Origin: Onchidella celtica
Lineage: Eukaryota; Mollusca; Gastropoda; Systellommatophora; Onchidiidae
DNA: 64,000 bases
Reading direction: 5' to 3'
Assembly: GCA_963931925.1 (NCBI GenBank)
Contig: OZ007570.1
Span: forward strand, 30,910,688 to 30,974,687
Shown: one piece after another, positions 7,117-63,696 of the stretch
How positions within the stretch are numbered: the stretch's first letter is position 1
How the letters are laid out: every line of letters starts with the position of its first letter
The notes under the pieces: model-generated
The model's database searches: none
What the model was told of the DNA's origin: nothing
The model's input: the letters and a program-made list of their open reading frames with translations, nothing else
Position numbers and translations under genes: made by a program

Positions 7117-10100
7117 CTGTAAATGAGACAATAAAAGAAAACGTGGTGCGAAAGTTCTGATGGTATGACAATATACAAATCATGCATGTGTGGGTATGGA
7201 ATACTCAATAAAATTTGTAGTGTGGATAACTTTCCTAATTCTTCTTCCTGACCACTAGATTCTGGAGCCTCTTGGTCTTAGTTATTGGTGCACTTGATAT
7301 TCATGTTAAATCTGCACAATATCCAGTCAAATGTAGGAAACAAACATTTCATGAAACTGGGCATAAATTCATATTTTAAGTTGTGTCAGTATCTCAGATG
7401 ACCAAACAGCTCTCGGCAAGTGCTTGAACAAACCTGTTTTCTAATTGTGAAAATTTACAGTCTTCAGACACAATGCAAAATTGCAAGTGTTAAAGGCACA
7501 AATGCATCAAAACGTAATGAAATAATTCAATACATAGTTATACCAAGCCCAATTTCCTTTCATAAATGGGGACTCTGAAGGACAATAGCTTCCTTCAAAG
7601 ACTGGCATGTAATCTAAACTTGACAGTACACATCTTTACAAAAGGAATATCTGTTCAATCAGATAATATGTTGAACAGACGTATGACAGTTATATCACTT
7701 AATACCTAATTGGTCTGGTGACAGTCACCTTCAAATGAGACAAAACTATTTCAGCACCTCTTTTTCTATGTTTGAATCTTGATTACTATTGGTACTAGTC
7801 TATTATTTTAACTGAAAGTCACTGCTGTTGTATCACCATGTTAAAAGACATTTTTCACAAAAAATGCCAGGGTTGTTGTTATACATGTGAAAAAGGAAGT
7901 TTTAAATGCCTGCAGGCGTTGCCAGTCTCGCTGAAAATTGTATATATACAATGAGTTTACAAATGGAAAGACTTATTACATGTTCACTGTCTTACCTGTG
8001 GTAAAAAGAATGGGTATGGAGAAGCAAGCCAATACGAGCCAGCAAATCCTCCAGCGATAAGCAGCAGGAAGAACAATTGCTGCCAACTGTGAAAAACAAA
8101 AACAAGTGGTAAGATAGCATCGTACTCTTGTTTGTCTTACTCCTCTACATAAAACTGCTTACACCCCCTTTTCAATTTCCTATGAACGCAGTCCTCATAG
8201 AATTGAAGCAGGGTTTGCATTTCCAGGAAATATCCAGTGAAACATCATGTGGCAGAACAGAAAACAGCAGAAGTTTTGAACTGCCAATCCCAGGCTTCAT
8301 TTTGCTGGAAACCAATAAATATCTTTCCCAAAAGTCACAAAATAATTTGTGACCATTGTATATGACATAACAGTTTAAAATCTAGACCAGGAGATCTCAA
8401 TCTTTCAATTGTTTGCCTTAGCTTGTATAACTTTTCTCCGGGACCGATTTTGACACTGGTTTTGGTGGATGAGGTATTATGGCTAATCACAGGGCTGGCT
8501 TGTTTTCAAAATTCTTGATGATGTGATTTTTTTTTTCAGCAAGCACCTTGCAATGGCTTGTGTTTATTACAATTTACATACATGTAAATTGACTGACAGA
8601 GTTTTCATTGTTTCTGCTCTGAACATGCTTCTACTTTGTTATCCCTTATTCTTCTTCTTCTTTTGTACACTAGGTAGTCACACTATAACTCCCGATTTTC
8701 TCATAAAATTAACCCTCACCCTGCGCGGGGCGGCAATAGTCGGTATTGACTTGCAAGCGCTCACGCCGCACGGGCGGCAAAAGTCGCCCCGGTCAAGCTG
8801 ACCGCGCCATGCGCAAGCCCTATTTTCAGGCGTTGGGTCACTGACCTTTTTGATTCGTAACCACCGTGTTATTGTTCACTGTATCTCTTCTAAATCAAAG
8901 GCATTGTGACATGGACATGTTAACCAGTGAACCACTGGTCGGAATCACAAAGACTAAGCTTTCAAAGGCTCTCCCCACACTTTCAAAAGATGTAACATCG
9001 ACATGCGAACTGTTGCTCAACAAATTTGCAATATTATCTCATTTTCTCACAAGCTGACCACCATCTGGAGTTGTCTGTATCTAAGAACCAATCAGAAACA
9101 AGCTCTGAAATAATCTTTGCCCCAAATGCCCACATTGGTTTATTTGTGCCAATCAGGATGAAACCATTTGTGTAGGGCTTGGGAGGGCGTGGCTAGTTAT
9201 CATGCTTCGTTCTCACGAAAACTACAGCTGTCAGTTTGGAATCATAAGTCAGATCATTGGTTAGAGACTGACAGACTAAAGTTTTGCTGGTTAATTTATT
9301 ATCAAGCGCGATAAGGCATAGCAGCGAATGTTTTCATACCGATCAATAAAAACCGAACCACGTGGACAGCGTATGTGGTCATCGTCTAGTGGCACGGGTC
9401 AGTGACCCCAGATAAGATTCTCTGTGAGTAAGGTCACTGACAGGGCAGCGGGCTTTACGGGTAGCGCGCAGGGTATGGGTTAACTGTCTGTAATAAATTG
9501 TTTACATTCCCATTTAGTTTTTCATCTACAGGTATTGGGCTGGGCCAGTAAAAGCTTCTGTTTTCTTCATAATTGGGACAATGCTGTAGTACATGGGTGA
9601 CTGTTTCTTCTTGACCACAACTGCAGAGCAACAACTAGGTTATTTTTATTCTGTTAAGATGCTTTGTTATCCCATTGCCAACAATTATTAGTGTGCTGTC
9701 TACAAACAACAAAGGATTAATAAGTAATACGTGTGATATTTGTATTATAATTATTTGATAAGTTCAGGTCCCTGAAGAACTCAAGTTCTCTGACCTCTTT
9801 TATGACTTCTCCTTCGTTGGTTTTGTAAAATCTCATATGATACACTGAATAGAAGTTAAGCTTTACAAGGGCTACTGTAAAAGCACACCATAACAACTTA
9901 TGGCATCCCAGCACATTAGGATTTTGTTTTTCAACAACGACAAAAAAAATGCACTTTCTATCAAAAAGGCAATTGCCAATTAACGTCTTTTTCAGTTTTC
10001 AGTGGCACTCACTATGTGAATCTTCCATCGGCATTGGGGTCCCATAGATCCTCTCCAATAATGTCATTGTCAGGATGAATCTAGAATGGAGAAATTAAGT

Positions 10101-13100: not shown

Positions 13101-15999
13101 TGTTAAGTCATCTTAAATGGACTGCCTCTCCTCGTGACTTATGGCCTCAAAACACCTAAATCTGGTGCAGTTACAATTCTCGCCTGTTACATGGTTAGAA
13201 ATGCGTTGTTTTTTATTTTTTATTTCTGCCTTCCAGCAACTTTCCTCTTTTTGGGGATTTCAGTGGGCACCGGGCCCTCATTGTTGTCAGCCATTTTGTC
13301 TCTGCTTTGTTGTGAAAATGCTGTCCTCTGATTGGCTTATTTAGTCAGGTGGCACTGGGGGATTCCCCTTTTGTGGACAAATCGGTCTTTTCCCTTTTAC
13401 TCAGTGGACATGTCTGGTTCTTCCAAAGGATAGGTTATTTTATACTGCTAATTTCTTGTGACATGTCGGGTTTTTCCATACCACACTCTTTGAATATAGC
13501 CTAAGGTTCATAACTTAAAATATGCAATTATGTGACATGTCCAGTTTTTCCCCTGTGGCCTTCAAATATCATTATCACGTCTTACAAAACAGCATATTTT
13601 TTTGCTGTGTGAATGTTTATTAACAGAGCTACACTTGCATTGTTTGTGCAAAATCTACTGCTCTCATCCATATTTTGTACAATTTCATCTAAAGTTTCCT
13701 TCAGTCACACAAGGCAGTGGAGTGCCCGTTATGCTTAAATGTGATGCGTGGGCCCTGCCTGCATATCTGAACACGCCTCAGAAGTTTATGGTATGGTAGA
13801 GCACACATTTCGCATGTTTTATTTATTTTTTTTTTAACCCAAGAACAATAATACTTTAATAGGGAATAAATCCATTTTCTTGTTGTTGTATCTTCACCTG
13901 TCAGTTGGGAACAGTGGTTCGATTCTCAGCAGGGTAGATTTTTTCTTTTCTTTTCTTATAAAAGTCTTTTTATCAGCAAATCGATCTGTTAAATGTTTTT
14001 TTATCCAACAACAACAATTGGGAATAAATCCTGTTTGATTCTTGTAATTAGTCAACACAATATATGTGGATAAAATCAAACTTTATCTGATGAAACTGTT
14101 CGCTGATAAACCTGGGCAGTATCCGCCGATAATGTTGCCGGCCCAGGCTATATCTGCCCATAGTGTTGGCGGCCCAGGCAGTATCCGCTGATAATGTTGG
14201 CGGATAAACCTGGGCAGTATCCACCAATAATGTTCACTGTTTCCACTAACAGGATAAATATCATCTCCTGAACAGAGAGGATCAAGTAATATTGTTCAGA
14301 CTAAGAACTGGCCACAACAGGCTCCACCACCATATGTTCACCAAGTTTAAAATAGGAACATCTGCCATATGTGACTGCAGCCAGTCTCCTCAAAACACGG
14401 AGCATATATTGCAGGACTGCACACTCTTCTCAGCACTGCGAGAAACGTATTTGCCCCAACCCACCGACCTGAACATCAAACTCTATGGTGCTCTGCCAGA
14501 ATTGCAGAAAACCGTAGATTTTCTTAAAAGAACAAATCTGCAGATTTAGATTGGTGAACGAAAGAAGAAGAAGAAGACTGTTTCCACTTTCAGTCCAATT
14601 ATGCTGTACAGTAGGCCTAGATGTAGATGTATATATTTAATGAAGAAAGAAACATTTCTCTTTGAAGCACCTCTAAATATATGGTGTCAAGACAATTCTT
14701 TACCTAACCTACACTTTTTACATTACAATCCACCAATCCTGCATATGACCACCCAAAATTAAAATAGTCCTTTTAAAAAACCCAGTAAGTCCCTGGAAGA
14801 CGAACAGAAGAGATTATCATTAGGCCACGCTTATTCGCAGACGGATCAGAATCTTATTCGCAGACGGATTTTCTGTTTGTGATTTTTATTTAGGAAGAGT
14901 TCCTTATGCGTCACCTGACAACCTCCTCGGCGTAAAATGGAGTTATCGATGAAACTTTCACCAAAACATTTTTGATGGCGAGAGCAGTCTATGGGATACA
15001 AAATCGCCCAAGTTTTTACAATTTTTTTTAGAGAATTATTATTATTAGCCAATTTTGTCGGGTGTAAAATCACAGAGAAAGTCGGACAGAACAAATAAAA
15101 ATGAATATAAACTTCCATGGAAACAAAAAATGTAATAAAATAAAACATGACAAATAGATCCAGGTTACCGTGGAGAGAGATGAGCTGTTCAATTCGCACT
15201 GACTAAAACAAATCATTTATATGGTTTAAAATTTGATTTTACATTTTTATTTCTGTCCTGTTGAGTGAACAGGAATAAATAAAATGAACAGGAATAAAGT
15301 AATCTGGTGCACACTAGATCTAGTAACACTGATCAATTTCCCCACATCAATTTTGCAAAATCCTTTAAAAAAAAAAAATTGTTTTTCCTAAAAATTAGCA
15401 ATCCTAGGTTAAAAAAAACAAAACTTTGCTCCGCCGTAGGTTTGTCTCTGACTGATAACCGCAGATGCTAGCCATTGCGCCATCCCAGACTGCAGAATAC
15501 AGGAGAACTTTCCCATAGTAGACATCACAAAATCAAGAAACCCCCCATCTGCGAATAAGATTGGGACTGCGGTTAAGATGGGGATCTTATTCGCAGACAT
15601 CTGCGAATAAGCACTTTGTTATCATTATGACAAACACATCCATGAAAGCTATTGTGCATTCACAAACAAAAGAGATTATGGCAGACAAACACAAACAACA
15701 AAACAGATCTAGATCTAGATCTATCTAGATTGCCTCCAGGTCTCATCTAGACCTCACTCATGTTTTGTGTAAGTAGGCCCTATTGGCCTATCATTCACCG
15801 GACGCCACAGAATGAAAAACAAAAACCAAACCCTCGACTTTGACCAAACAATTAGATCTACATCTAATGCCAAAGAATCCTGAAAAACTGAAAGCTTACT
15901 CGAAACTACTGTTGTTGTTGAAAATCTATGCTTGCCATGACAGACAAATGGTCGCGCTCGTCTTGCCAATAGAGCTAAGGTGCTCCTCAAGGTCGCCAT
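7015..15999 (-). CDS. NDUFB8: NADH dehydrogenase 1 beta subcomplex subunit 8 (complex I ASHI subunit), complete in 5 coding exons
   Basis: NDUFB8 is a supernumerary subunit in the membrane arm of mitochondrial complex I. It does not itself carry electrons. Coding exons in transcription order are 15999-15900, 11179-10965, 10080-10013, 8086-7996 and 7116-7015. All junctions are GT-AG and all phases agree, giving 191 residues (human 186). Residues 1-33 are rich in Arg and Ser with few acids, a mitochondrial import signal. The family signature PRTPEERAAAAKKYGLRPED sits near residues 45-64, the aromatic/acidic RDPFEDYDAPGI block follows, one membrane span (LFFLLLIAGGFAGSYWL) lies near 132-148, and the tail PKQYPFNDLYLENGGDP is typical. 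The ATG at 15999 is chosen because a strong import signal begins there in good context (AAAAATGG). It stands head to head with MRPS9. Confidence 0.95.
7996..8086 (-). CDS. NDUFB8: NDUFB8 coding exon 4
   Basis: Residues 128-158. Carries the single membrane-spanning segment. It starts in phase 2 and ends in phase 0, with a CACAG acceptor and a GTAAGA donor. Confidence 0.93.
8709..9483. mobile_element. piggyBac-like non-autonomous element, family E copy 1 (775 bp)
   Basis: Bounded by TTAA on both sides with inverted ends: TTAACCCTCACCCTGCGCG on the left and, read inward, TTAACCCATACCCTGCGCG on the right. TTAA targets and CCC-starting ends are piggyBac hallmarks. Near-palindromes of the type GGTCACTGACC repeat just inside both ends (8791-8803, 8836-8846, 9396-9408, 9432-9441). 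There is no transposase. A second copy lies at 28347-29126. It sits in NDUFB8 intron 3. Confidence 0.8.
10013..10080 (-). CDS. NDUFB8: NDUFB8 coding exon 3
   Basis: Residues 106-128 (IHPDNDIIGEDLWDPNADGR). Phase 0 to phase 2, with TTCTAG acceptor and GTGAGT donor. Confidence 0.92.
10240..10735 (-). pseudogene. 3' fragment of an L2/CR1-type LINE with (ATT)n tail
   Basis: On the minus strand the end of a reverse transcriptase ORF is readable: EFKILCMVYKCLN, then SPNYLSELIEKYTPPRNLRS, then APKLWNNLNYDIKTTNSIEH, ending KSKLKTLLFQKSV before a stop at about 10424. One in-frame TGA interrupts it. The 3' non-coding part ends GCGCTATATAAATCAATTATT and an ATT microsatellite at 10240-10270, a common LINE/SINE 3' tail. 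The rest of the element is missing. It lies in NDUFB8 intron 2. Confidence 0.8.
10965..11179 (-). CDS. NDUFB8: NDUFB8 coding exon 2
   Basis: Residues 34-105, including the most conserved block PRTPEERAAAAKKYGLRPED and GDYPNLP. Acceptor CATACAG at 11180-11186, donor GTGAGT at 10959-10964. Confidence 0.95.
11684..13564. mobile_element. 1.9 kb inverted-repeat element (candidate)
   Basis: A 35-base block (GAAGGCCACAGGGGAAAAAC to CACAT, 11684-11718) returns in inverted form at 13530-13564. Related GACATRTCCGGTTTTTCC blocks appear inside both arms (about 11905 and 13460). No transposase frame was found. It lies in NDUFB8 intron 1. The outer borders and target duplication are not clear. Confidence 0.5.
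13835..14250 (+). repeat. Composite repeat with internal minisatellite, copy 1
   Basis: Contains a B-box-like GGTTCGATTCTC (about 13914-13925), a pyrimidine run, CTTTTTATCAGC, and then a minisatellite (14100-14235) whose units combine TAAACCTGGGCAGTATCC with GCCGATAATGTTGGCGG. The same order of parts appears at 17030-17365. A unit can fold because GGCGGATA and TATCCGCC are complementary. Confidence 0.65.
14254..14578 (+). pseudogene. C-terminal fragment of a LINE ORF with (GAA)n tail
   Basis: An open stretch encodes YHLLNREDQVILFRLRTGHN, then a cysteine/histidine set (ICDCSQSPQNTEHILQDC), and ends in a stop at 14547-14549. This is the usual C-terminal region of LINEs with an RNase H domain followed by a CxC...HxxxxC knuckle. 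It ends in a GAAGAAGAAGAAG tail at about 14560-14577. The 5' part is absent. It lies in NDUFB8 intron 1. Confidence 0.75.
14828..15614. mobile_element. MITE-like element with TTATTCGCAGA inverted ends (0.79 kb)
   Basis: The left end carries two direct copies of CTTATTCGCAGACGGAT (14829 and 14853). The right end carries ATCTGCGAATAAG twice (15548 and 15600) with one opposite copy between. The outermost bases give inverted GCTTATTCGCAGA ends. No transposase frame is present. It lies in NDUFB8 intron 1. Confidence 0.6.
15705..15729. repeat. TAGATC microsatellite
   Basis: Short run of AGATCTAGATCTAGATCT. The same hexamer recurs near 26276, 37588, 48184-48255, 50553-50575 and 54516-54549. Confidence 0.8.
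15900..15999 (-). CDS. NDUFB8: NDUFB8 coding exon 1 (mitochondrial targeting sequence)
   Basis: Residues 1-34: starts MATLRSTLALLARRARPFVC, positively charged and without acidic residues. It ends in phase 1 at a GTAAGC donor, which fits exon 2 exactly. Confidence 0.9.
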
Positions 16000-16333: not shown

Positions 16334-19300
16334 GTATGCAATGAACAGGGAGAGACTTTTCAACTTATATACTTTTTTTGGGCTCATTATAGATATCTAG
16401 ACTAATTTAGAAGCTCTAGACTAGATCTGGATTTAATGCCAAACTAGATAGAATCTAGGCTTTGGTCTTTACTAAGTTAAAAATGTTGCAAAAATAGAAA
16501 AAGTTGTATATATCGTGAAGATGTTTAGGCCTTTTTGTGGTTTAATTGTTGAACTGTTGTTGTTTCCAAGTGATTTTACAATCGAAGTGTTTATCTGCCA
16601 ATACTGTTGGACAAAATTTCCCCTAGGATTTTTTTTATCAGCAAGCATAAATTCTGTTGGATCTCCCTTGATTCGAACCCTTCTCCGTCTTCCTCCCTCG
16701 TTCCATTCATCCCGATCACCATTCGTATTGCGCACGTGTTGAAAATATGGTATGATTGAAATTGGAGACACTTTTCTAAATAAAAATGGAAGTTATTGAT
16801 TACATGGGTAGGTTCTGGTCTTATCTATTGATAATGGGTTTCTTGGTTAGTCATGCTTATTTAGTAAGAATTCCCTCACAGTTGCACAGGGTTCTCAGTA
16901 GCGTAGTGGTTAGCTAGCATCTTTGCCTGTCAGCGAGGGGACCTTGGTTTGATTCTCAGCAGGGCAGTTGTTTTTTTTCTCTTTTCTTTTATAAAGTCTT
17001 TTTATTATATATTACTATTAGGAATCAATTTTTTTTTTCATCCAAGAATAAAAATAGTGAATAAATCCATTTTCTTGGTTGTGAATTGGGGGACAGTGAT
17101 TTGATTCTCAGCTGGATAGGTTGTTTTTTTCTTATACATCTTTTTATCAGCTGTCTTTGTAATGTTTGCCCAGACTGTATCTGCCGATAGTGTTGGCGGA
17201 TAAACCAGGCAGTATCCGCTGATAATGTTGCGGGCAAGGCTGTATCTGGTGATAGTCTTGGTGGCTCAAGCAGTATCCACCGATAAACCTGGGCAGTATC
17301 CACCAACATTATCTGCGGATAAACCTGGGCAGTATCCGCCAATAATGTTGGCGGATAATGGCAGCCTTTTACAAAATACTGTCATATCTTTCTTTGGCAC
17401 ATTTTAACTGCTTCAGTAAGTAGAGAAAAGTGATTTTATAACATCAATACATGCTTTGAAATATGAGTCAATAGGTCACCATTTCAGGTACAAGGAAGTA
17501 GTTAATGACTCTCAGACTCAGTTTTAATTACTTCAGTTTCAGACTCAGCATCATTCTCGAGCAAGTAGCAGTCATGCCACATCCACTTCATCATCCCAGT
17601 CCAAACCAGTGAACAAACCTACGGCTAAGGCTATAACTATCAGTCGTGCAATGAGAGCTTATATGGAGAAGGTAAAAGCTCATGGTAAGACTGCATTTTA
17701 ATAATTTTGAATACTTCTCTGCAGTGCAGGCAAAATTTGATACTGAGTGCAGCTGGTCAGTGCATGAAATGAAAATGTTGAAAAATACCAAGAAGAAACA
17801 GTTGGTTCTCTTGGTATTCTCAGACCTGGTCACTTACCATTTTGCAAGGAGAATTACAATTTACTTACATACCTCCTAGTCTGAGAGTAAGTGATAATGA
17901 GAATTTCTGGAATGAGGTCACTGATGCTACCACTATAGTGTAATCAGGTGCTAAATGATGCAATGTTAATAACTAGTAAACAATTTTTTAAAATGACCAT
18001 TATATCAGTTGAATTTGAAAGTCAAAGAAGAACAGGCCTAACACTGTAACAATAACAAGGCCGGCTGCTCGGGCAAAATAAAAATTAAAAAAAAAAAAAT
18101 CCCCTACCTCATCTCCCTCCTCTCATGATACTGTTCAGTGAACAATTTCAGATGTCTTCCTCCATTCTGGGATGTATACAATCTGCCTGTGATAGAACTG
18201 TTGCAAAATGTTAAACATGAGATTTTTCCTTTTAAAGGAAAAGTATTTTTCCATCCACTTCAGTCTTCAGATGGCCAAGTCACCTACTCACTAAATTCCT
18301 ATCATATAGATGAATTTTAAATTGTTCTTTCAGATGACATGATGAAGGCAGAAGTTGCAGACTATGAAATTGGCAAACGTCATTTAGCTAACATTATGGG
18401 AGAGGATCCAGACAACTTCACACAGGCAGATGTTGATGTAAATATCGCTTGTTCATTTTCTTAGAATGAAATTTCCAGCATGTAACATTTCCGAGGACAT
18501 AGTGTTGTGCGACAGATTTAATTTCAAGCTTATTCTCAGGTAACTAAACCACTGAGTGCCTGTTAACAACATTGCTTATTTTGGCAGTGATGAGGCCAAA
18601 ATTAATAGTCAGAAGAGAGCAAACTGAGCACTATATAATTACTGTGATGCTCCTGTCAGTTGCCTTCTTTCGAAAAAGTGTGTGGAGCTGCTTTTTAATT
18701 TTCATCACACATATGACATATTGCATCTAGCACAGTTGAAGCTAACCATGACTCAAATTTGTCTTGTTTTACAGAGAGCTATAGAGTACCTGCTGCCTTC
18801 TGGATTACTGAATGAGAAAGCAAGGCCAATGATGAAGGTTTGTGTTTCATCTCATCTTGTACATACCTGTCCTCAAATTTTACATCAAAAAATTGCGAGG
18901 AAGTGCAGAAATCGTGGCTGCAGTGCGGTATAGTGAAAATTGTTGCAGCCACAGCCTATGCAATTTTGTATGTGTGTGTGTGGGGGAGGTATACATTACA
19001 TGTGGTTAAACACAGACATTTTATATTTCTTCTGATAATGCAGTAACCTTTTCCGTACACCGTTATTTTAGCCCCGATCCGTACGTCCTGGATAGTTTTG
19101 TAGACATAATGCTGTATAAAGCAAAATGCACACATTAGCTGATCTGTATGTCCTGGATATTTTGTAGACACACAGTCCTTACACTGCCTTACAGTCAGAC
19201 CATCCGTTGTTACTGATCTTATTAGAGACATTTAGGGTGGCTTTTTCCTTTTATGGGTATCATACATCTGTGTTCGGCTAGACCTAATAATGCTTACAGG

Positions 19301-36753: not shown

Positions 36754-43488
<6,735 letters not shown>

Positions 43489-47030: not shown

Positions 47031-48300
47031 AGACATTGGCTGATTCGAGACTTGTCAAAGTTGTGTGTCTTAACTCATTCACTACCACGAGCCGTGTTTC
47101 ACCACGCCTTGTCTGACAGCCATGGCTGGCCCGTGCGCCATGTTTCACGGCTCAACTAGTAATACACATCCAAATCCAGACCGGTTTTTCAAAGTTAAGA
47201 AACACAAATCCAATCCAACATTCTGGAATGGTTTATGAACATCCTGTTGCTAAATTCAACCGAGGAAAAGACACATTAGAGCTACTTTGAAGAGAAATTA
47301 TCGACCAAGTTTTGGATTTTTTTTCATTTTTTGTGTGTGCCAGCGGTGGTGTTTTTTTTTGCTGTAACTTTTTTATTTCTCTAACAATGTTTGTGAAATT
47401 CACATGGATTATATATGAATGGATTATAAACAATATTCTGGAGTATAAAACCCATTGGAGTTTTTGTTCCTATCTACGAACCGTAAGTTGAAATTGTGTT
47501 GGTCATATAATCAAATTTTTTTTTTCACATTTTGTTTTGTTTAACTCTTACATGAATTTTTTATCTCTCAAAATAAGTTTTGATCAACATAATACTATAA
47601 AATTCAGCATTAAATCAATAAAATTCCAAGTCTCTCCAATTTCAATATAGTTTTCAACACTCGCCCAATATGAACGTTGATCGCGTCAAGATGAACGCTC
47701 GTACGGAACAAAGGAGGAAGATGGAGAAAGGGTTCAAATCAGGGGAGATGACTCGCAAATTAATTATACAGAATTTATGTTGACAGATAAAAAAAAATTG
47801 GCGCTTTTTCGGTAGTTCCCACCCCAACTTACCTAGGCTATATTAGTCGATTGTCAGATTTGATATGTAACGACGTGAGGGTCTAGTCAGTTTGTATCAT
47901 CGAGGCCGTAGGCCGATGTTCGTCTGGGCAGTAGTCAGATTGACATATCAGGGAAAGCTGCCGGGGTAGCTATGTATTGTTTTCACTCGGACTATGGAAC
48001 GCATTTGGAAGTCCTTCCGTTAACTGGGGAGGGGTGGGAACAAGCGAAAAAGCGCCAAAAAATCCTAGGCTAGGGAAAATCTTATCCCTCACTCAGTATC
48101 GACGGATACACTTCGTTCAAAGAAAGCCCTTTGATCCACTCTAGAGATCAACAAGTTTAGGCCAAATCTACATCAAAATGCAACTAGAGTCTAGATCTAG
48201 ATCAAGGTCTAGATCTAGATCTAGATCTATTAGTATTATTTAGGCCTAGATCTAGACTACATCTTGAGGCTAAATTTGGAAATGCGTGTGGGTGATCTTC
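47031..48300. other. Intergenic, between two LINEs
   Basis: No gene recognised. At 47070-47160 a TTAACTCATTCACTACCACG start followed by inverted GCCGTGTTTCACC / GCCATGTTTCACGGC blocks looks like one end of another TTAA element, but no opposite end was found. A TAGATC microsatellite lies at 48184-48255. Confidence 0.4.
48184..48255. repeat. TAGATC microsatellite, interrupted
   Basis: Repeated CTAGAT units over about 70 bases, just before the LINE at 48310. Confidence 0.85.
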
Positions 48301-48309
48301 ATGGTGTTT

Positions 48310-50430: not shown

Positions 50431-53400
50431 GTGTGTATATATTTATTCTCATCCCTGATGCAGATTAACTGTAGGAAGGCAGTCTGTGTGAATCTGCCCT
50501 TGCAAACATGAAGTAATCTATTATCGATAATGATCAAGTGTACTTTTTCCTTTAGATCTAGATATCTAGATATCTCTTATGTCAGGCCAGAGTTTTCTGC
50601 TATTGTATGACAGTACACAATACAGCCTGCTACTGTCACCCCCACTGTCTTGTGGGTCATCTCGGGAGAGAGGAAGACTAGGGGAAGGTAACCCTGAATA
50701 CAAATACCACACTGCCTTGTGTGTTGCTATGATAGCAAAGGCTATGGGAGTAAACCCAGACAGAAAATCAGGAGTGGAGACCCGAAGGTGGTTGTCAGGG
50801 AGAACTGCATCAAACTGCAGCCGGACTAGTTCCAAATGTATTGACCTGGTCTCTCCCTTGGGTTTAACTAGAATGGCAGAGAGAGGGGTGGTGCCTCTGG
50901 GCAAAGCACCATCTCTTAAAAATAGCCCAGGCAAGGCAGCAAAACGAGGAGGCGTTTGCTCGGGCTGGCAAGCGTCTGTCTCTCCTCTATAAGCCCACCC
51001 ATTTCCGATTTGGAGAGGACACTCCAGCCATCCGTTACGGATGGGCACAACACGGGAGGTGGCAGTTACCGGTGATAAGCTCAATCCATTTGGCGTACGG
51101 ATGAGCGCCAGGGGTCCCCTCTGTCGGTGGGAGCGGCTTTTCAGCTGCATTGATCAACTACCGCCCGCCGTAACCTGGGCAGCCTCCAGGCAGTTGGGTG
51201 TTGTTCCGCCACGTCAGCCTGCTTCATAAGGTGGTTGGAGCTAGACCAAAAGTCAAAAAGCTGACGTAAAGTGTGCACCTGGCAAAAACAGAAAAATACT
51301 AAAACTTGGTACCTGGAACGTCAGAACAATGCGCCCAGGCTTGCAACAGCAAGATCTCACTAATATTGACTCCATCAGGAAATCCCAAATTATTGATCAA
51401 GAACTTCAGCTACTAAACATCGACATCGCTGCCCTTCAAGAAACTCGACTTCCCGACTCCGGGTCAGTCAAAGAAGAAAACTACACCTTCTTCTGGCAGG
51501 GCCTTAGCAGCGAACAGCCGAGAATCCACGGCGTGGGCTTCGCCGTAAAAAACTCCCTTATCAATTCGATCGCAACTCCAATTGGAGTGTCAGAACGCAT
51601 CATGACACTCAGACTGAACACCCGGTCTGGTTTTACCAACATTATCTGTGTCTATGCCCCAACACTTACCTCCTCTGACGAAACCAAAGACATTTTCTAC
51701 GAGGCATTGCAGAGGACTCTCCACAACATCCCTCTCACCGAAGGCCTGCTAATTCTGGGTGACTTTAACGCTCGAGTGGGAGCAGATCACTCCGCATGGC
51801 CAAAGTGCATTGGGCACTTCGGCATTGGCAACATCAACGAAAACGGGCAGCGCCTTCTGGAGCTATGCTCCGTAAACTCATTATGTGTTACAAACACGTA
51901 CTTTGACCTTAAGAGATGCCAAAGAACATCATGGCGCCATCCCAGGTCTGGCCATTGGCATCAATTAGATCTTATTCTCTCAAGGAGGAAGAGTTTGGGC
52001 TGTATAAAAATAACTCGTTCCCTCCACAGTGCTGACTGTGACACCGACCATGCACTGGTAGTCAGCAAAATCAAAATTTCGGCCAAGAAAATATACAGAT
52101 CAAAAGCCCCTTCAATCCCTTAGATCAATGTAACAGCAATCAGAGATGAATCAAATAGAAAGTCATTTGAAAAGTTATTTGCTGAAAGCATGGATAATGT
52201 CACCCAATGTGACTCGGTAGATGAAACATGGAACACTCTCAGTTCAAAAATTCATGACTGTGCCATCAAGTCTTTTGGACAGCATAAAGTTTCAAACAAC
52301 GACTGGGTAGCCCAGAACAGCGAAATTCTCCTACCTCTCATTGAGCAAAAGAAATCTGCTTTCAATGAGTATAACAAAAATTGCAATCAGAGTACAAAAA
52401 CTTGTTTGAAAAATGCAAAAGCTAAACTTCAGCTGGAGGTAAGACGTTGCGCCAACAAATACTGGACAGACTTGTGTAACAGCATACAAGAGGCAAATGA
52501 AAAGGGAGATATGAAAACCGCCTTTAGTCAGATGAAAGTAGCTCTTGGGCCAATCATCACCAAGAGCGCCCCACTTAAGTCTGTAAATGGTGAACCCATC
52601 ACAGATAAAAATGAACAACTGAATAGGTGGGTAGAGCATTACTCTCTGTTGTATTCAACTGAGAAAAATATTCCACCAGATTTTGAGGAACACCTCCAAA
52701 AACTGCCAATAATGGCCGAACTTGACGCTGAACCTTCCTTAGTCGAGCTTTCCAATGCAATCGACCACCTGTCTGCTGGAAAAGCCACAGGAAGTGACAA
52801 CATTCCTGCAGAGGTATTAAAAGACCTAAAAGGCCCACTATTACCACACCTGTATAATCTGTTACTGCAGTGTTGGAAAGAAGGCGTGATACCACATGAT
52901 ATGAGAGACGCCAAAATTGTCACACTTTACAAGAACAAAGGAGACAAAGGCGACTGCAACAACTATCGAGGCATATCCCTCCTCAGCATTACTGGAAAGG
53001 CTTTTGCTCGCGTCATCCTCTGCCGCCTTCAACAACTGGCGGAAAAAGTCTTACCAGAAACACAATGTGGCTTTCGAAGCAAACGATCAACTATTGACAT
53101 GATATTTGCACTTCGGCAAATCCAAGAAAAATGTAAAGAACAAAACAGGCCGCTTATAACATGCTTTGTGGACCTAACAAAGGCTTTCGACACCGTAAGC
53201 CGATCTGGCCTGTATGCAGTCCTTAAATCCATAGGCTGTCCACCAACATTGCTAAAACTTATTGCATCCTTCCACACTGACATGAGGGCATGTGTCAACT
53301 TTGAGGGCTGCACATCCAATTCATTTGCTGTAAACAGCGGTGTGAAGCAGGGATGTGTTCTTGCTCCTACCTTATTTGGTATATATTTTGCAGCCCTACT

Positions 53401-56400
53401 CAAGAATGCCTTTGGTCAATGTTCAGGTGGAGTACTTATTAACACCAGAGTGGACGGCTCCATTTTTAATGTTGCCAGACTAAAAGCAAAATCTCGTACA
53501 GAGCATATTATGTTACAAGAGCTCCTCTTCGCAGATGATGCTGCAATCGTGGCCCACGATGAAACCACGCTCCAGGCTCTCATCAATAGCCTTGCCAAAG
53601 CCTGTGACAAATTCATGCTAAAGATCAGTGTCTCAAAAACTGTAGTTTTGACACAAGGCTTGAGAAACCCCAACCCAATCATGCTGAATGGCTCTCCTCT
53701 GGAGCAAGTGGGAAAATTCTGCTACCTAGGCTCAACCATCAGTGGTAGCACAGACATAACAACTGAAATAAATGCCAGAATAGGAAAGGCGGCCACAGCT
53801 TTTGGCAAACTCTCAAAAAGGGTGTGGAACAATAGCAAGCTGACCATCAAAACAAAGGTACTCGTGTACCAAACTTGCGTCCTAAGCACCCTGCTGTATG
53901 GCTCAGAGACATGGACCACCTACTCCAAACATGAAAGATCCCTCAACTCCTTCCAGCTGCGCTGCCTACGCAAAATTCTCAAGATCAAGTGGCAAGACAG
54001 GATCTCAAATATCGAAGTTCTGAGCCGAGCCAACATTCCATCAACTCAGGCTCTCCTAGGCAAAAAAAGACTGCGGTGGCTTGGACATCTCCACCGTATG
54101 GAAAATGATCGCATCCCCAGACAAATTCTCTACGGGGAACTTGCTACTGGCAACCGACCCAGAGGTAGGCCACATCTGCGATTCAAAGACACTTGCAAGG
54201 TCACGATGAAAGCATTCAACATCGACCCCAATGAATGGGAGAACCTTGCAAATGATCGAAGCAGATGGAGACAAAAATTGCGCAGTGGCACGCTCGCAAT
54301 AGACTTCAAGGCAAAAGAAACATACCTGACAAAACGACAGAGGCGGAATGAAAACACTCGCCAAAGTGAACCAAAAAGACTGACCTGCAATCACTGCCAT
54401 CGCACTCTCGGGTCAAACATTGGTAGAATAAGCCACGAGAGAAGCTGTCAGTCAAAGTGAAAGTGAATATTCTAGCTGCTAAGACCGTCTGTAAAGACGC
54501 TAAAGGCCATATATATAGATATCTAGATCTAGACTAGATCTAGATCTAGTTGTGGGGAACATGTACGAAGTATTAGACCCTAGACTATGATCAGTTGTTA
54601 TAATTAATACATGAGAATGTGACATAGAGCAGATAAGGCCATAACTTACCAGTGGAATAATAAAATCTGGGAAACTAGTGACCTATAACTATCATACATC
54701 TGAAGAAAAAGAATAGCCTGCACGACAAATATTAGTGTAAGCCTATTTGTATGACTGAATGAAAGTTCCATTAAAACACAAATGATTTTCACTCTTCAGT
54801 CTTTCTGCATCTTGCAACAAAATCCTGTGTTTTCTTGAAATCATTATGCTCCATGTAAAATATCGATGGCTCCGTGCTGAAACCGGCTATCTGCTTGACA
54901 TCAAATTTTACAGGAGAGGCAAAAAACTGTTTTCGCGTTAAGCGAAACGGAATTTGCTGCCCAGACATCATTAATCTTCTTTGAATTCAATCCCGTGTCA
55001 GCCTTACTAATGATTATTGCATTTAATTTAGTCTTTTAAATGAGAAAGCACATGTCCGGTTTGGTCACTGGAAATGGTCAGCTGCGAAACTTGACATCCA
55101 ACCTGAAACGTGAATGGCCGGTTTCACAGCTGAGGTTTTCAGTGCTGAAGTCGGCTAAGTGTATTCTGATGGTTAGTGCTTGATGGCTGATACAATTAAA
55201 CACTTCTAATTTTGTTCAATATCATCATACTCGTGTTCTATATTAGTTCAATCGTCCACTCACCTGCCCATCCAATCCCCTTTCTTTCTCTTCCACCCCT
55301 CCCCCCCCCCCCCACACACACACACAGGTGTAGATAATATACACTGGGGAAAACATTTTTTTAAAATACAATTTTATTTGATAACTTCATTGTCATGAAT
55401 AACTCGATGAAAATTATTAGTTATAAGTATTATGATGAAGTTTAAGTATGAAATTTAATGAACTTGTATGAAAAGAAATTAATGAGGAGTTGAGGCTGAC
55501 ATTGTTCATTAACTTACAAAATAATAATGGTAAATGGCATTGCAAATAGTGTCACAGGTACGATGATGATAGATCACGATAGTGATGACGATGACTGTGA
55601 TGATGATGATGGCGATGATGTTTTTAGGCACAGTTACACTATCTTAATTTGGATTGCAAATTCCATAATATAGCATTGACAGTAATAATGATGATGTAGA
55701 TGACAATGAGGGCAATACTGATCAGAAAATTGGATGACGATAGAAATGAGGAAATGAACGAATGGATTGTTATGATATCTAGTGAGGCAAGTTATCAAAG
55801 AATGAATAATGGTCCTTAGGGATGACCGGCTTCAGTTCTTCAAGATGATTGTTTTAAATTTTGGAAGTTGCAATCTTGAGGCTGGCATGATACAGTCGTG
55901 GAGGTGTTTGCCCCTGGCTTTGAACGGCTTTGTCTCCTCTCGGCATTGGTAACTCCTGTCATTAATCCCTATAATTCAGCTTAAATTCCACTTTCCTGTC
56001 GGGTGTGTACTTCAAGCATCGTGTGTCTGTAACGGTGGGATCTCCGACTTTCTTTCCAGGACGGATGGTCTTCAATGTGCTGACTTTGGCAAAGTCATGG
56101 AAAAATTGGTTTTCGATATACTTGACGATAAGGGCGAGGTTTGAAGCGAGCACCCTCAATGACTCAGATAGTCAGCAGGCACCTATATGGGGAAGTTTGC
56201 AAGGGCTCGTTCAATGACAGCATGAACGGAGTCCACCTCCCATGTGGGTGTGTCCCTTTTGTAAAATCTTTTGCACAATTGTGCTGCCATATTGTGCAGC
56301 AAAGTCACACAGGGCGCCAGCCAACACTGCATTCCGATTTTGGTAGCTGCAACCATCGCGGCAGGAAATCCACAGTGCAGTTGCTGAACTCGTTTCCAGT

Positions 56401-59400: not shown

Positions 59401-62400
59401 AAGCACATGCATGTATATTGGCAAGTATTGGTACCATTTTGTTAGTGCTAAATATCAAATTATATTGCATGTAATCAAAATTTGACATTTTTTGATAATA
59501 ATATCTTAATACTTTGACAGTCATTACATTGAAAGTTGAGTTGAAATCCCTAGGAGTATGCATGTTTATCTTCCTGCATGCCTATTACAAAGCTCTTAAA
59601 CCGGGTAATTCTAGATCCCCAAATCTACCAGTCTGTAGTTTGGGGACCACCATATTGTCATTTTTTTTTCTTTTTCGCAGCTTATATGTTTGGATAAGCT
59701 GACAGAGTGACAATAAATATCACAGTATCTGAGCTTTCACCTTCATTTACATCATCAGATGAAGAGAGGAAGAAAATGAAATTGAAACAAAATTGTGGAA
59801 ATTGATGAGCATTTATTTAGTTGCCAGGGATACTAAGGATAATGGAAGTCAAAGGGCAGTTATATTGTTGATGCATTTGATAATGTATGTGTCAAAGTAA
59901 AAGAGTGTCACTGTGCTATTGAATATACAATACACATGTGTAGTTATGGAAAACACAAACTGCTTGTAAACCTTAACCCAAGTGATTTAGAGGTGTTCTG
60001 TTGAGAGAATATACTTTTCCACTCCAATATTAACCAAGCTGCAATTATCAGTCGTGTGTGTCCTTTCCTATTATTTATAATTTTTAATTTTTACTGAAAT
60101 TTCATACTGCTGGCATGAGCAGAATTAACCATTGGATACTGATTCAGTCATCAGTGTCATTAAGAAAATTTCGTGCTTAAAAAAAAACAACAACATTGAC
60201 TGATGTGAAAAATGAATGGAAAATTATATCAATTTTTTTTCTAGATATCATTTTTGAACTGCATTTGAATATGTTGCTTGAAAATATCTGTCAAAAATAA
60301 AGAGAGAATTTGTCTGTCTATCAGTAAATATGAGCTGATCCTACAGATTGATTTGACTGATAATCTTCATGTTTCATCATACAGGTCTTTGATTGTACTC
60401 GTAAAATTACTTACAAGAACTTGCCAGAGTGGTTGAAAGACTTGAGACAGTATAGACCAGAAATACCATGTTTGTGCGCAGCAAACAAAATAGATGGTAA
60501 ATTGATATTCCCCTATTATATGCATATGTGTCACTATATTTCTTCGTCTTATCAACACTCTAGTAACCCACGGAAGTTTTAAGCCTAAATGTGAATTATG
60601 CTGCAGTTTATTCATTTTATAGCATAGCACTAGCAGTAGTATAGGATATTACTCGTATTCCTCTTTGTTCTTGTCACAGATGATGTTTTAACCCTATATT
60701 GGCCTCCCCGCGCAACACGGGAGGCCATTATTTTGTCCGACACGCTTAACCGCGGGTCCTGCGGGAGGCCACATTTTTGTATAGCAATGGTGCGCCTCGC
60801 GCTTTGTGTATTCGGTTGCCAAGGCTGTCGTTGTTTGTTTTTTTTTCCCATACTATTTTCGCGTGTTTATCTATCCTGTCACCCCTACTATATCTAGCAA
60901 AATGGTATCATCCGATTACATTTATTACGATGCAACTATTCGCAACTATTCGTCATACTCGTGTAATAGTACTGACAGTCTGAAGTTCGAACTGGGGAAA
61001 ATCTTGGAGAAACTTTTACTTTGATGCTGGTTGTCGTCTACATGTGAAATGAGAAGAAAGGGGCCATGTGCGTATTTGAGACGCCGTTCTACGTCTGTAA
61101 TTATGAATTCCGATGTAATATTAGGTCTTGCTGCATAAGGGCGTCTGTCAGTAGGTTTTTCATCAGGGAAAACTGGGAGAAAATGACCGACTTTGTTGTT
61201 GGTCGTTGTCTTTATTTGATGTGGTAATTAGAGAGATATTGTGTTCCTTTGATTAAACCGTTTTTCAGTACATACATACATACTGTGCTCTACGACCTGG
61301 AACTGGAAATCAAATCCCTCGCTGAAACTAACATCATAATACGTGGAAGCTTTACATAGTAGAGGAGGGAGAAGGCAATGTCACGATACATGTAGTTAGT
61401 AAATGAAGCGAATGGCTTAAAAAATAATTTGTTCACCTGAATAGCCTGACTTAGGGACAGAAAAAGCGTAGAGGTCTTGGGAAAATGATAAAACGTGTGT
61501 TAAACGGCATGTAAATGCAGAAAATTCTTGATTTGGGCCTTCCATTTCACAATAAAACCTACTGCATATCATCACAAGTACTTTATCCAAATATCATAGG
61601 GGTCCCTTACGATTTATCCACCACTAATGTTGTTATTGCGTCCTGAAGTATACACGATACAGGTGTTCACAAGGACCCGATTGACCCGACCGCCGAGGTT
61701 ATCGGCAACGCGCGAACGATCGGCTGACTGGCCGCTGGCTATCCCCGCACGGGGCGTTACGTGGACGAGTTCACACCACACGGGACGAGGGTTAATACCT
61801 CAGCTATAGATTGCATTAGTAAAATTGTAAATTCATATCATTTCTAGTTTCTCAACACTATTCCTGTAAATTTATTTTCAAATGTTAAAACCATATTGTG
61901 GAGAGAATGAACACTGAATTGCACTTTCAACACAAATAAATTCTCTTTCTTTAATTTTTTTTTTTTTTTTTTGCAGAGGACATGGATATGACGAAAAAGT
62001 CTTTTGCATTTGCTAAAAAGCACAATATGCCATTTTACTATGTTTCTGCAGCCAATGGTACAAATGTAGTCAGGGTAGGTTGGTCTGAGTTTACAGTAAT
62101 TATTATTCATGTAGTCTTCAGGAATACCATGTTTTCAGTGTTTTCACTCAGTTAAATCCTGTCAGCTCTGAGCCTTTAAGTCATCTCATAAAAGTCGCAG
62201 TTTAAGATCAGAATTCTTTCACTTTCTTTATTTACTGTTATTGTCTTGTTTTACTGAGTGTGTGAAGGCCAACTTTTTTGTTTTATCTAAATGGTAGTCT
62301 TACATTCTTTATTATATTTGTCACTCTTTGTGTTTAAGCTTCTCATAGGGTCCCCTCCTGTCCTGTTGATCAGTTACATGCTGTCTTATCATCCTGCTTT

Positions 62401-63696
62401 GTCCTAGCACAGTGTGACCATTATCATGTTGATGCGCTCTCTTCAAACTCAGACTGAAGTGAAACTCGGGTACATGTACATTTATATCTGTGATTTAGTG
62501 TGCTGGTTTAACGATGTGTCCTGGTTGGAAAATTTTTAGTACGAACATTTGTTAAGGCTAGTGGCTTCCTTGAGAATTAAAGGAAAGATATTATTAGAGG
62601 CAGATTGCTGTCATTTAAGTTTTTAATTTGCAGGTTTGATGAATATAAATTAAACAGTGTCTTTTTATCTTGATTTGTGAATTGCTTCATTTTGTTTATT
62701 TTGAAGATAACGCCAATACATTTCTCATCAGGAACTGTGATGGAAAACTGAGTTCTACCAGTTTCATCAGGTTTACATTTTTCACTGACTCAGATATTGT
62801 ATTGGCTTAACACTTTCGGCCCACATCGCACATTGGTGTGCAATTGATAAATGTTCCCACTCGACGCATCCTGCAACCGTGTGCGGATCCATTTTGTTCA
62901 TCTAGTCCGAACCGCACACTGGTGTGAGCGGGAGTCCCCTAAATTTTTATTAGCCCCTCACTCTTTCTGGTCAAAGGGGAGTTACCCCCATAATGAAACT
63001 GAACTATTCACCCAACAATTTATACATTCCCCTTTGTGGTCACATGATATCTTTAGTAAATTTAGACGCTTGCAGCAGGGGATGGAATTCCCTTTGATTC
63101 TTACTTTCGCAATGGCCTCAACAAGCGATAGATCTACTACTAGTCAGTTCTTGTGAACAAGTACATAATAGACATTTGGAATATAGTTACATTATCATAA
63201 TCCTTGTTCAATTTCCTTTTCATTGGTGCCTTTACTTTCCTTGTAAGTAAAAAAATAAGGCCACAATGATTTTTTAGAAAATGTCTACAAAACCTTAAGT
63301 ATTCAGGGAATAGGGCACGATTTCCTGTTGTGTACTGTGGGACAATCCATATTCTGAGGTCACGAGCTGAAAGTGTTAATTGGAATTTTGATTCTGTCCA
63401 TTGCAGGAAGCAAATCGATATGTGCAGGTGACGTAGTTTTTCAGTTTTATGAGACTGAAAACTGGCTCAACCAATACCAGTACTTCATCTGAATGAAGCA
63501 TATCAGCAAGACCATTATGAAGCCTGATATGGATCAGTTCACTACATTTCAGTGTCGGTACTTTGAGCAATCAGGCAATTTTTCATTAATGTACTTGCAT
63601 TTTGTCTTTCAGTTATTCAGAGACTCTATACGAGCAGCCCTGGCATACAAACACAACTCTACAGACTTCATGGATGAAATTATGAAAGAATTAGAG
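50330..63696 (+). CDS. RABL2: Rab-like protein 2 (RABL2), 7 coding exons, C-terminus beyond the window
   Basis: RABL2 is a small GTPase that helps trigger entry of intraflagellar transport trains into cilia. Coding exons: 50330-50430, 58261-58290, 58825-58904, 59341-59420, 60385-60496, 61977-62074, 63613-63696; phases agree throughout and give 195 residues. Nucleotide-binding motifs: P-loop GDSAVGKS at 26-33, switch II WDTAGQERF near 73-81, NKID at 131-134, SAAN at 158-161. LDG-type switch I region reads GYKPQQLSTFALTL, as in RABL2. Human RABL2 (about 229 aa) has a further acidic tail, so at least one more exon is expected to the right; otherwise the frame ends one codon later (GTT TGA). Intron 4 starts with GC. 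Intron 1 (7.8 kb) holds a LINE and a DNA transposon. Confidence 0.95.
50553..50575. repeat. TAGATC/TAGATATC tract at the LINE 5' junction
   Basis: Contains TAGATATCTAGA at 50559-50570. The same 12 bases occur at 54516-54527 beyond the LINE 3' end, so they may be the target duplication. Confidence 0.6.
50571..51328 (+). other. Leader of the LINE in RABL2 intron 1
   Basis: Non-repetitive in this window, about half G+C. It contains a 137-codon frame (50579-50992) without recognisable domains, so ORF1 function is unproven. The coding frame of the polyprotein stays open upstream of 51329 for about 30 codons (including KILKLGTWNVRTM), so the first ATG may not be the true start. Confidence 0.5.
51329..54460 (+). 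pseudogene. LINE endonuclease-reverse transcriptase with one in-frame stop
   Basis: Part one (51329-52120) is the endonuclease: LGTWNVRTM just upstream, LQETRLPDSG, VYAPTL, LGDFNARVGADHSAW, a QLDLILSRR block and a closing DTDHALVVSKI. A TAG at 52121-52123 interrupts the frame, which then continues in the same phase (22 codons to the next ATG at 52190). Part two is the reverse transcriptase: SAGKATGSDNIPAEVL, NNYRGISLLSITGKAF, FVDLTKAFDTVSR, GVKQGCVLAPTLFGIYF and the catalytic LLFADDAAIVAHD. It ends with RLRWLGHLHRM, GRPHLRFKDTCK and a C-terminal zinc-knuckle-like CNHCHRTLGSNIGRISHERS plus C. With only one defect the copy is recent. Confidence 0.92.
54516..54549. repeat. TAGATC/TAGATATC tract at the LINE 3' junction
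   Basis: TAGATATCTAGATCTAGACT and further TAGATC units directly after the LINE. Confidence 0.75.
55297..55326 (+). repeat. C-run followed by (CA)n
   Basis: Simple repeat: a run of about 15 C, then CACACACACACACA. Confidence 0.9.
55785..57607 (-). pseudogene. Broken transposase-like gene (DGCSYQNRN family)
   Basis: Pieces in order on the minus strand: an acidic N-terminus (57607-57356, MPDRILKSGVEDVD...); a Cys-rich start MKPSCACRGKTTGCDTFTEE with IFNYIWSLSLGEKRSFV (57289-56906); YKPRKDQCDTCVGYETDT with CVVTMDLQC and YYKTKLATHNFTVFDLATKD (56763-56305); CRDGCSYQNRNAVLAGALCD and TIVQKILQKGHTHM in another frame (56840-56211); DSVHAVIERALANFPI; YIENQFFHDFAKVS with RKVEFKLNYRD (56159-55962); and finally LEELKPVIPKDHYSFFDNLP near 55790-55850. 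Several frameshifts and stops separate them. I recall this set of motifs from uncharacterised, repeat-borne proteins of many animals. D in MDLQ and DGC could be transposase acids. Family name not known to me. Confidence 0.7.
58261..58290 (+). CDS. RABL2: RABL2 coding exon 2 (30-base microexon)
   Basis: Residues 34-44, LVERFLVDGY (outer residues split by introns). Acceptor CTCCTCAG, donor GTATCC. Joins in phase on both sides to match the family. Confidence 0.9.
58825..58904 (+). CDS. RABL2: RABL2 coding exon 3
   Basis: Residues 44-71: KPQQLSTFALTLFNHREVID then GKTVSI. Contains switch I. Acceptor GACGGCAG, donor GTAAGT. Confidence 0.94.
59341..59420 (+). CDS. RABL2: RABL2 coding exon 4, followed by a GC donor
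   Basis: Residues 71-97: DFWDTAGQERFNSMHPSYYH then QAHACIL. The only donor that keeps the conserved HACILVFD reading is GCAAGT at 59421-59426. Confidence 0.93.
60385..60496 (+). CDS. RABL2: RABL2 coding exon 5
   Basis: Residues 98-135: VFDCTRKITYKNLPEWLKDL, then RPEIPCLCAANKID with the base-specificity NKxD motif. Acceptor CATACAG, donor GTAAAT. Confidence 0.95.
60688..61795 (+). mobile_element. piggyBac-like element, family A copy 2 (1.1 kb)
   Basis: TTAA at both ends; left CCCTATATTGGCCTCCCCGC, right, read inward, CCCTCGTCCCGTGTGGTG. GGCCTCCC...GGGAGGCC near the left end (60701-60726) and CCCCGCACGGGG near the right end (61743-61754) are inverted subterminal blocks. Inverted relative to 39616-40711. 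In RABL2 intron 5. Confidence 0.85.
61977..62074 (+). CDS. RABL2: RABL2 coding exon 6
   Basis: Residues 135-167: DMDMTKKSFAFAKKHNMPFY, then SAANGTNVVR (G5 motif). Acceptor after a 20-T tract, donor GTAGGT. Confidence 0.95.
62807..63379 (+). mobile_element. TTAA-bounded piggyBac-like element, family C (573 bp)
   Basis: TTAACACTTTCGGC on the left, and TTAACACTTTCAGC inward from the right. Two near-palindromes inside the left end: CGCACATTGGTGTGCA (62827-62842) and CCGCACACTGGTGTGAGCGG (62912-62931). A short frame MASTSDRSTTSQFL at about 63112-63156 may be a leftover transposase start. In RABL2 intron 6. Confidence 0.75.
63613..63696 (+). CDS. RABL2: RABL2 coding exon 7 (last seen)
   Basis: Residues 168-195: LFRDSIRAALAYKHNSTDFM, then DEIMKELE. 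Acceptor TTTCAG. A donor-like GTTTGA follows; reading through it adds Val and stops, so this is either the penultimate exon (expected) or the end. Confidence 0.9.

Follow-up and report, generated by a model that had tools for sequence, protein, structure and literature searches.

We describe five families of TTAA-type elements with piggyBac-like ends, here called A, B, C, D and E, that lie within one 64,000-nt stretch of DNA (the window). This stretch, G000:C4:30910688-30974687 in an assembly of 1.14 Gb, has the look of animal DNA. In three of the families, A (bp 14-35), B (bp 17-32) and C, the first palindrome met on moving inward from the tip is centred at bp 24.5. Cryo-EM structures place a dimer of the transposase's cysteine-rich domain (CRD) on bp 17-33 of Trichoplusia ni piggyBac, centre 25 (as given in the text of PMC7351741), and on bp 19-30 of piggyBat, centre 24.5 (likewise from the text of PMC11707139). 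We consider it highly probable that families A-E are non-autonomous piggyBac elements moved in trans, that the bp 24.5 palindromes of A, B and C are bound by pairs of CRDs, and that additional units of this type recruit an inner dimer. Palindromic CRD sites have already been published; what is new is the fixed 24.5 register in A, B and C.

All five families have tips whose first base is C (CCCT, CACT or CCTT) and short TIRs with a CC[C/T]T or CAC tip: CCCTCGCCCTGCG / CCCTAGTCCTGCG in A, CCCTCACCCTGCG in E (a tip mostly common to these two families), CCCTTTCACTGCCGC in B, CACTTTCGGC in C and CCTTTTCCGTA in D. Self-comparison of the window recovers A twice (91%) together with one partial copy, and E twice (90%), and four families (A, B, C and E) each have multiple copies across the 1.14-Gb genome. 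Duplication of the TTAA target site is seen in genome copies of A, B and E, in the window for C, and on one side only for D (GTAA / TTAA); the bounds of C and D were set by eye and by motif search. As A, C, D and E carry no gene by which to mark the left end, the motif-bearing or window-left arm was taken as left.

The first-pass annotation of this DNA had proposed five TTAA families bearing repeated motifs just inside CCC or CAC ends, and both the elements and the motifs are present in all five. Its description of the ends holds generally, except that D ends in CCTT with GTAA at its left and that the right site of the second E copy is CTAA. Several of the motifs it listed require amendment: the B motif, said to occur three times, does so exactly only twice; the A motif is confined to one arm, and some 20 bp are gone from the tip of that arm in the copy at 60688; and the E motif is indeed found on both arms, where a further palindrome brings the number to two per arm. 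The assertion that the motifs of A, B, C and E are themselves palindromes stands at the register for the first three, and for E only deeper in the arms.

The features of family B are as follows.

38127-39438, + strand: family B; TIR CCCTTTCACTGCCGC matching at 15/16, TTAA on both sides
38147-38162, unstranded: B palindrome 1, bp 17-32, centre 24.5
38194-38209, unstranded: B palindrome 2, TACGGCCTTGGCCGTA (the middle, inexact one), bp 64-79; its central letters vary
38241-38256, unstranded: B palindrome 3, bp 111-126
39346-39430, - strand: B right arm, TGCC box repeated every 33 bp, palindrome absent
38437-38868, + strand: B open frame, acidic

The exact B palindrome was found at 39 places in 21 genome loci and its reversed control at none, and a search by the open frame returned 21 close copies that proved to be the same 21 loci. 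All three positions (bp 17, 64 and 111) have a palindrome at 18 of these loci, two palindromes remain in L019, and L004 and L014 have left-end deletions; a palindrome pair exactly 94 bp apart is found in 18 of the 21. TTAA adjoins the left end at every locus, and a right-end search tolerating up to 4 mismatches identified a right end with TTAA and 0 mismatches at 17. No right end was found at the other four, which depart from the family at B positions 1304 (L002), 1262 (L018), 899 (L020) and 735 (L008). In L008, sequence resembling window 875-1576 comes after the break. Repeat offsets of 47 in the left arm (p<=0.005) and 33 in the right arm (p<0.005) were detected. A table of 14 B copies was used neither for TTAA, its copies having been picked by TTAA-containing strings, nor for conservation, since B copies were located by the palindrome. 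The acidic frame may be the remnant of a transposase N-terminus; Pfam and PDB searches with it gave no match. Genome-wide, this frame has 19 more distant relatives (41-52%), and several PF13843 genes and two B copies occur within 0.6 Mb at G000:C7:37.22-37.82 Mb.

Family A is represented by two copies and a fragment.

39616-40711, unstranded: family A copy 1, TTAA to TTAA, ends CCCTCGCCCTGCG / CCCTAGTCCTGCG
40673-40694, - strand: A tip palindrome GGAGGCCACTATATTGGCCTCC, bp 14-35 from the right tip, centre 24.5
40609-40660, - strand: further A units, GGAGGCCA, bp 48 and 92 from the right tip
60688-61795, unstranded: family A copy 2, inverted; GGAGGCCA tip shortened by ~20 bp
22748-23142, unstranded: partial family A copy, single end, TTAA at 23139-23142

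The arm of A bearing the tip palindrome has GCGGGA at bp 11-16. An interior query from copy 2 yielded 3260 first-look genome candidates, of which 40 were scored, most at 94-96%. Among ten fetched genome copies the tip palindrome is exact in seven and has a single changed base in each of the other three; TTAA is found at nine right arms (TCAA in L077) and eight left arms (altered in L082, truncated in L088), and some copies have decayed end sites. The spacing between the first and second units is 34 bp in most copies, 36 bp in L075 and 43 bp in L077, L081, L089 and L093, and within-arm repeat offsets of 34, 44 and 78 are each recovered at p<=0.005 when all offsets are scanned with mismatches allowed. 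With copy 2 excluded for its deletion, changes affect 8/517 motif positions and 32/957 positions elsewhere in the arm (p=0.044).

Family C has two palindromes in one arm.

62807-63379, + strand: family C, CACT ends, TTAA on both sides
62827-62840, unstranded: C palindrome 1, CGCACATTGGTGTG, bp 17-30, dyad centre 24.5
62913-62926, unstranded: C palindrome 2, CGCACACTGGTGTG, 86 bp (2 x 43) deeper

A genome search with C gave 39 matches, including 14 other copies that cover most of the query at 81-91%. The double palindrome at exactly 86-bp spacing occurs in five copies, the window copy included, and the control in none; the remaining 9 of the 14 matches to it belong to a single tandem array on contig C3. 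That array (G000:C3:8218302-8218905) has a period of ~37 bp and is built on the CACACTGGTGTG letters of the C palindrome. The pair is intact in 4 of 17 other copies, compared with 0.59 expected from interior identity (P=0.002), and the within-arm repeat offset of 86 has p=0.005. Taken by itself the C palindrome is weak (p=0.048 for the pair count at the register, p ~0.43 as the best of its arm). At G000:C5:8817450-8820545, two adjoining parts of C lie ~3 kb apart on one strand; this locus is a candidate for either a full-length C partner or a C copy with an insert.

Family E has two palindromes on each arm.

8709-9483, + strand: family E copy 1, TTAA on both sides
8791-8846, unstranded: E left palindromes, GGTCAAGCTGACC at 8791-8803 (bp 79-91) and GGTCACTGACC at 8836-8846 (bp 124-134)
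9397-9442, unstranded: E right palindromes, GGTCAGTGACC at bp 73-83 and GGTCACTGACA at bp 38-48 from the right tip
28347-29126, + strand: family E copy 2; right site CTAA

The clear E palindromes (GGTCA..TGACC) thus lie deeper than bp 24.5. Of 1550 first-look genome candidates, 40 were scored and are ~98% identical; TTAA is present on both sides of copy 1 and of all 8 fetched copies. Palindrome 1 is intact in 10/10 copies examined, and one E copy has lost a palindrome through deletion. A repeat offset of 44 (GGGCGGCAAWAGTCG) was detected in the left arm of copy 1 (p<=0.005), no within-arm repeat in the left arm of copy 2 (p=0.89), and a merely suggestive right-arm offset of 35 (p=0.085-0.175).

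Family D is built on direct repeats.

19043-21181, unstranded: family D, CCTTTTCCGTA ends; left site GTAA, right TTAA
19076-19171, + strand: D left arm, a pair of direct units at a spacing of 64-65 bp
20906-21171, - strand: D right arm, three units on the opposite strand, at 20906, 20971 and 21159

These direct units, inverted between the two arms as the first-pass annotation had it, are not palindromic. Allowing up to 3 mismatches, the D motif has 13 matches in the window, five of them within D, compared with 3.76 expected, and none of 100 shuffles gave as many; offsets of 65 and 64 were each significant (p<=0.005).

The same annotation had named two outcomes that would count against it, namely ends lacking TTAA duplications and palindromes confined to single copies. 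TTAA flanks hold in copies of A, B and E, and for A, B, C and E further copies carry the palindromes too. It had also proposed comparing conservation of the palindromes with that of the element interior. Motifs are better kept than the rest of their own arms in A and E, and the C pair exceeds expectation. The E palindromes (9/449 changed, versus 85/1872 elsewhere in the arms, p=0.011) show no better conservation than the E interior (66/5326 changed), by which the E copies in this count were found and ranked.

The genome is rich in PF13843 (DDE_Tnp_1_7), with 116 scored matches among 1223 genome candidates, and contains intact piggyBac transposase frames; four transposases match the solved piggyBat (9c0f) and piggyBac (6x67) proteins with E values of 2.7e-17 to 1.1e-41. 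No element with A-E ends was found to enclose a PF13843 gene, no full-length element with such ends was found in the genome, and A, C and E contain no frame longer than 101 aa. Scans of viral contigs with the B frame, the B unit and the A/E tip gave no match. Elements around 46 PF13843 loci (L021-L066) were delimited by pairs of TTAA sites and TIRs. Five families (L051, L054, L060, L062 and L065) without a convincing pair were left out of the end counts, and a pair was also absent from several single F1 and F2 copies and from L042, L055 and L066. This left 11 gene-bearing families, seven of which (F3, F4, F5, F9, F13, F14 and F15) take their ends from one locus each; the F14 tip match is weak.

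In 7 of these 11 larger elements enclosing piggyBac transposase genes, a palindrome is located at the register seen in A, B and C, and the palindromes are mostly unrelated in sequence. The left end of F1 (represented by L033) carries GCACCCCCCTGGGGTGC, centre 25, in 8 of the 11 copies with that tip, L024, L025 and L029 having lost part of it. The left ends of F5 (TGTCCTTTTTTAAGGACA), F7 (TTTGGCGCAATATTGCGCCGAA) and F8 and F9 (TGTTGCC..GGCAACA) have palindromes centred at 24.5. A later fetch added F14 (TGCGCTGTGTACAGCGCA) and F15 (CCGATGTATCGG), both centred at 24.5, and F13, weak and centred at 25.5. In F2, all 7 copies that show the arm concerned have a single 18-bp palindrome with its centre at 35.5, and in F3, as in E, the tip unit is repeated and is not clearly palindromic at 24.5.

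How far such palindromes exceed chance depends on the test applied. When the best palindrome of each arm was compared with dinucleotide shuffles, A (both copies) and B were significant and C, D and E were not, and palindrome strength alone was dropped as a criterion because these three fail. The longest exact repeat between arms (130 bp) gave p<=0.03 for B, D, both E copies and A copy 1, 0.073 for A copy 2 and 0.44 for C. Repeats at any offset, with mismatches allowed, were significant for A, B, C, D and E copy 1, and the same script, when applied to the left end of piggyBat as published, returned 44 (p=0.010). In these three tests the ends of both A copies and of E copy 2 were one base short; the correct A end was used in the register test and in the table of 16 families. 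In the register test, the best palindrome was centred at 24-25.5 in 6 of 26 arms from 13 families (8 with ties), compared with 0.42 expected (P ~5e-6), where tied cases in B and C were assigned to the deeper copy and scored as misses, the ends had already been inspected beforehand, the tested interval came from the papers, and the arms are not fully independent because F8 and F9 share one palindrome. Pair counts at the register reach p<0.05 in 10 of 16 families (A, B, C, F1, F5, F7, F8, F9, F13 and F14) and are not significant in D, E, F2, F3, F4 and F15 (p=0.168 in F15). Helical phasing of the spacings was set aside, R being ~0.7 equally for periods of 10.0, 10.5 and 11.0 and so uninformative beyond clustering.

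Among the alternatives, the one that fares best, though we judge it improbable, is that the palindromes do other work, as host-protein binding sites, promoter elements or hairpins of single-stranded ends, with their position a by-product. The GGTCA half-sites of E look similar to nuclear-receptor half-sites, and in B and the gene-bearing elements the array lies upstream of an open frame. Cruciform formation by such repeats is raised in a passage of PMC12324416. Against this role, largely unrelated palindromes have their distance from the tip in common, not their sequence; that distance is the CRD footprint in two solved systems; and the motifs are kept in A, C and E, which lack a frame longer than 101 aa. 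Less probable still is that the pattern reflects chance and pattern-seeking in GC-rich arms where palindromes would be expected anyway: singly, the best palindromes of C, D and E do not exceed shuffles, C also fails the exact-repeat test and the ends had been inspected before the register test, but the register itself came from papers and gave a significant excess, as did the offset repeats, the palindromes are present in other copies of A, B, C and E, and the later-fetched F13-F15 agree, F13 weakly. Membership of A-E in the Kolobok superfamily, which shares the TTAA target site, is just as remote, as Kolobok tips are AG/RR (both points from the available text of PMC6004289) and no such tips adjoin TTAA in A-E, whose C-starting tips fit the piggyBac CC[C/T]T hallmark (as stated in PMC2872659) and the piggyBat CAC, and C-tipped elements of the same genome, several with the same palindrome register, enclose PF13843 frames.

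Beyond the register, the ends differ in where a second site is placed. Recurrence of the bp 16-33 unit, tested in 16 families, was found in the left end only in nine (A, B, C, E, F3, F7, F13, F14 and F15), on the right end only in four (F1, F5, F8 and F9, with centres at 136.5-143), nowhere in three (D, F2 and F4) and in both ends in none; the chance of no overlap between left and right recurrence is 0.019. Left-tandem spacings are mostly 42-47 bp (twice 43 in C), and 34-36 bp in short A variants, F3 and F13. In F1, F5, F8 and F9 the palindrome of the right end lies 112-118 bp deeper than its left counterpart. Short boxes on the right end, every 33 bp in F7 and every 31 bp in F14, resemble by appearance the right end of B.

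The end layouts split by transposase clade and match CRD spacing. On a tree of 15 transposases, the left-plus-right families fall on one side of a branch with support of 99/98, and one change separates them from the left-tandem families; because this is a single split, the separation counts as one event. Of the families with neither layout, F4 lies among the left-tandem rows and F2 beside the left-plus-right rows. The CRDs of F1 and F5 read CxxC-x7-CxxC...FH, and those of F8 and F9 have a wider first pair with the same 7-residue gap and FH; in F3, F7, F14, F15 and piggyBat the gap is 12-29 residues long, with YH in place of FH. Gap and layout go together, 4/4 against 5/5, which is 1 in 126 by shuffling without correction for kinship; F13, having no CRD motif, is outside this count. 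A strict either/or of the layouts is called into question by the clear E palindromes, which sit on both arms; E breaks it if its palindromes are CRD sites.

From the observed element boundaries, copy numbers, motif positions, spacings, conservation, intact transposase frames and layout split, we infer protein binding, tetramer assembly and trans-mobilisation of A-E along the following lines. The families would be mobilised in trans by transposases, of which the genome has many. The transposase core would hold the tip repeat, and the palindrome near bp 24.5 in A, B and C would be held by two C-terminal CRDs, with each subunit of the outer, cutting dimer contributing one. The extra left-end units (47 bp apart in B, 43-44 in the long A variant, 2 x 43 in C and 44 in E) would recruit an inner dimer that synapses the ends in a piggyBat-like manner, and a sister lineage in the same genome would have placed the second palindrome on the right end instead. 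For B, the outer dimer could engage the left unit at bp 10-32 and the right box at bp 10, and the inner dimer the left bp 57-79 and the right box at bp 43; the left ends of A and C would permit the same mapping, and that of E less clearly. The earlier suggestion that the motifs are transposase-binding sites is supported for A, B and C by the position of the first palindrome, which coincides with the CRD-dimer site in the cryo-EM structures of T. ni piggyBac and piggyBat.

The solved complexes provide the template for this scheme: the tip is gripped by the core domains, the palindrome is held and bent by a pair of CRDs, and the ends are brought into synapsis by a second dimer that does not cut (text of PMC13405395). 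According to the passages of PMC11707139 and PMC13405395 on piggyBat (Myotis lucifugus), the left end places a G box at bp 11-16 and then a palindrome at bp 19-30, an arrangement that occurs three times at 44-bp intervals, and the right end has G-type boxes at bp 12-15 and 44-48 and no palindrome. Family B matches this layout, its left end having three tandem units at 47-bp intervals and its right end boxes 33 bp apart and no palindrome; A and C do so with less regular units, E repeats the unit yet has palindromes on both arms, and D lacks the arrangement. GCGGGA in A has the letters and place of the first piggyBat G motif, as that motif is given there, and in F7 (L052, L053) and F14 (L063) two units are separated by 43 bp and the palindrome has no copy on the right end. 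The differences are that palindrome sequences are not shared, that A-E lack a full transposase gene, and that spacing is 42-47 bp in most families (34 and 36 in A variants, 35 in F3 and F13) rather than 44.

For T. ni piggyBac, the text of PMC7351741 gives a palindromic left CRD site and an asymmetric right copy, the logic also of F1, F5, F8 and F9, except that its right copy is within the first 63 bp and theirs is centred at 136-143. Its CRD, CxxC-CxxC-CxxH-CxxC in the text of PMC8086355, differs from that of the left-plus-right group. Subterminal or inner inverted repeats, a feature in common with our families, are described for human MER75, MER85 and Looper and for invertebrate elements in PMC12324416, the available part of which does not mention a fixed register or a split by transposase lineage. 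Coral CMITEs are piggyBac MITEs that share TTAA, CC[C/T]T tips and a non-autonomous nature with A-E; they differ in being ~100 bp long with a shared interior, and the word "palindrom" is absent from the text of PMC2872659 as available.

Palindromic CRD sites having been published for T. ni piggyBac and piggyBat, and subterminal or inner inverted repeats for the human and invertebrate elements just named, the first-pass remark that such repeats are not a described rule for piggyBac elements is partly wrong. A rule of register and layout was not found in searches of an open-access library, which lacks most subscription papers. In the accessible text of PMC8086355, which cites the survey of Bouallegue et al. 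with its four groups of ends, available data showed no straightforward correlation between piggyBac-like end organisation and the putative CRD fold. Because many families are intact in the present genome, the comparison can be made there: the palindromes, mostly unrelated, share one register, and the two layouts separate on the transposase tree. The question thereby becomes testable, MITEs can be matched to enzymes and the limits of their ends checked, and the result is relevant to transpososome assembly through CRD binding at one end or at two. A general grammar of piggyBac ends, in which the tip is followed at ~24.5 bp by a CRD palindrome and the second site takes one of two main placements (mostly 42-47 bp further in the left end, or on the right end centred at ~136-143) set by CRD lineage and Cys spacing, has in our estimate about an even chance of being correct, a figure lowered because the deeper E palindromes lie on both arms. 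If it were true, the layout of a MITE's ends would tell which transposase clade moves it.

Other features of the window include long frames at 997-4131 (-), 31873-33186 (-), 44635-49885 (+) and 51245-54460 (+), read as LINE-type retroelements; the second, the only one of the four searched, has an RVT_1 match (1.1e-38). Positions 14827-15609 are bounded by inverted CTTATTCGCAGA motifs and resemble a further DNA transposon whose ends lack TTAA. Two repeat arrays, at 14077-14234 and 17171-17358, are related, have units of 31 and 36 bp and lie inside a longer duplicated stretch, and an inverted repeat over ~170 bp at 44155-44321 (74% by BLAST, with outer 21-bp arms exact) is a possible small hairpin element.
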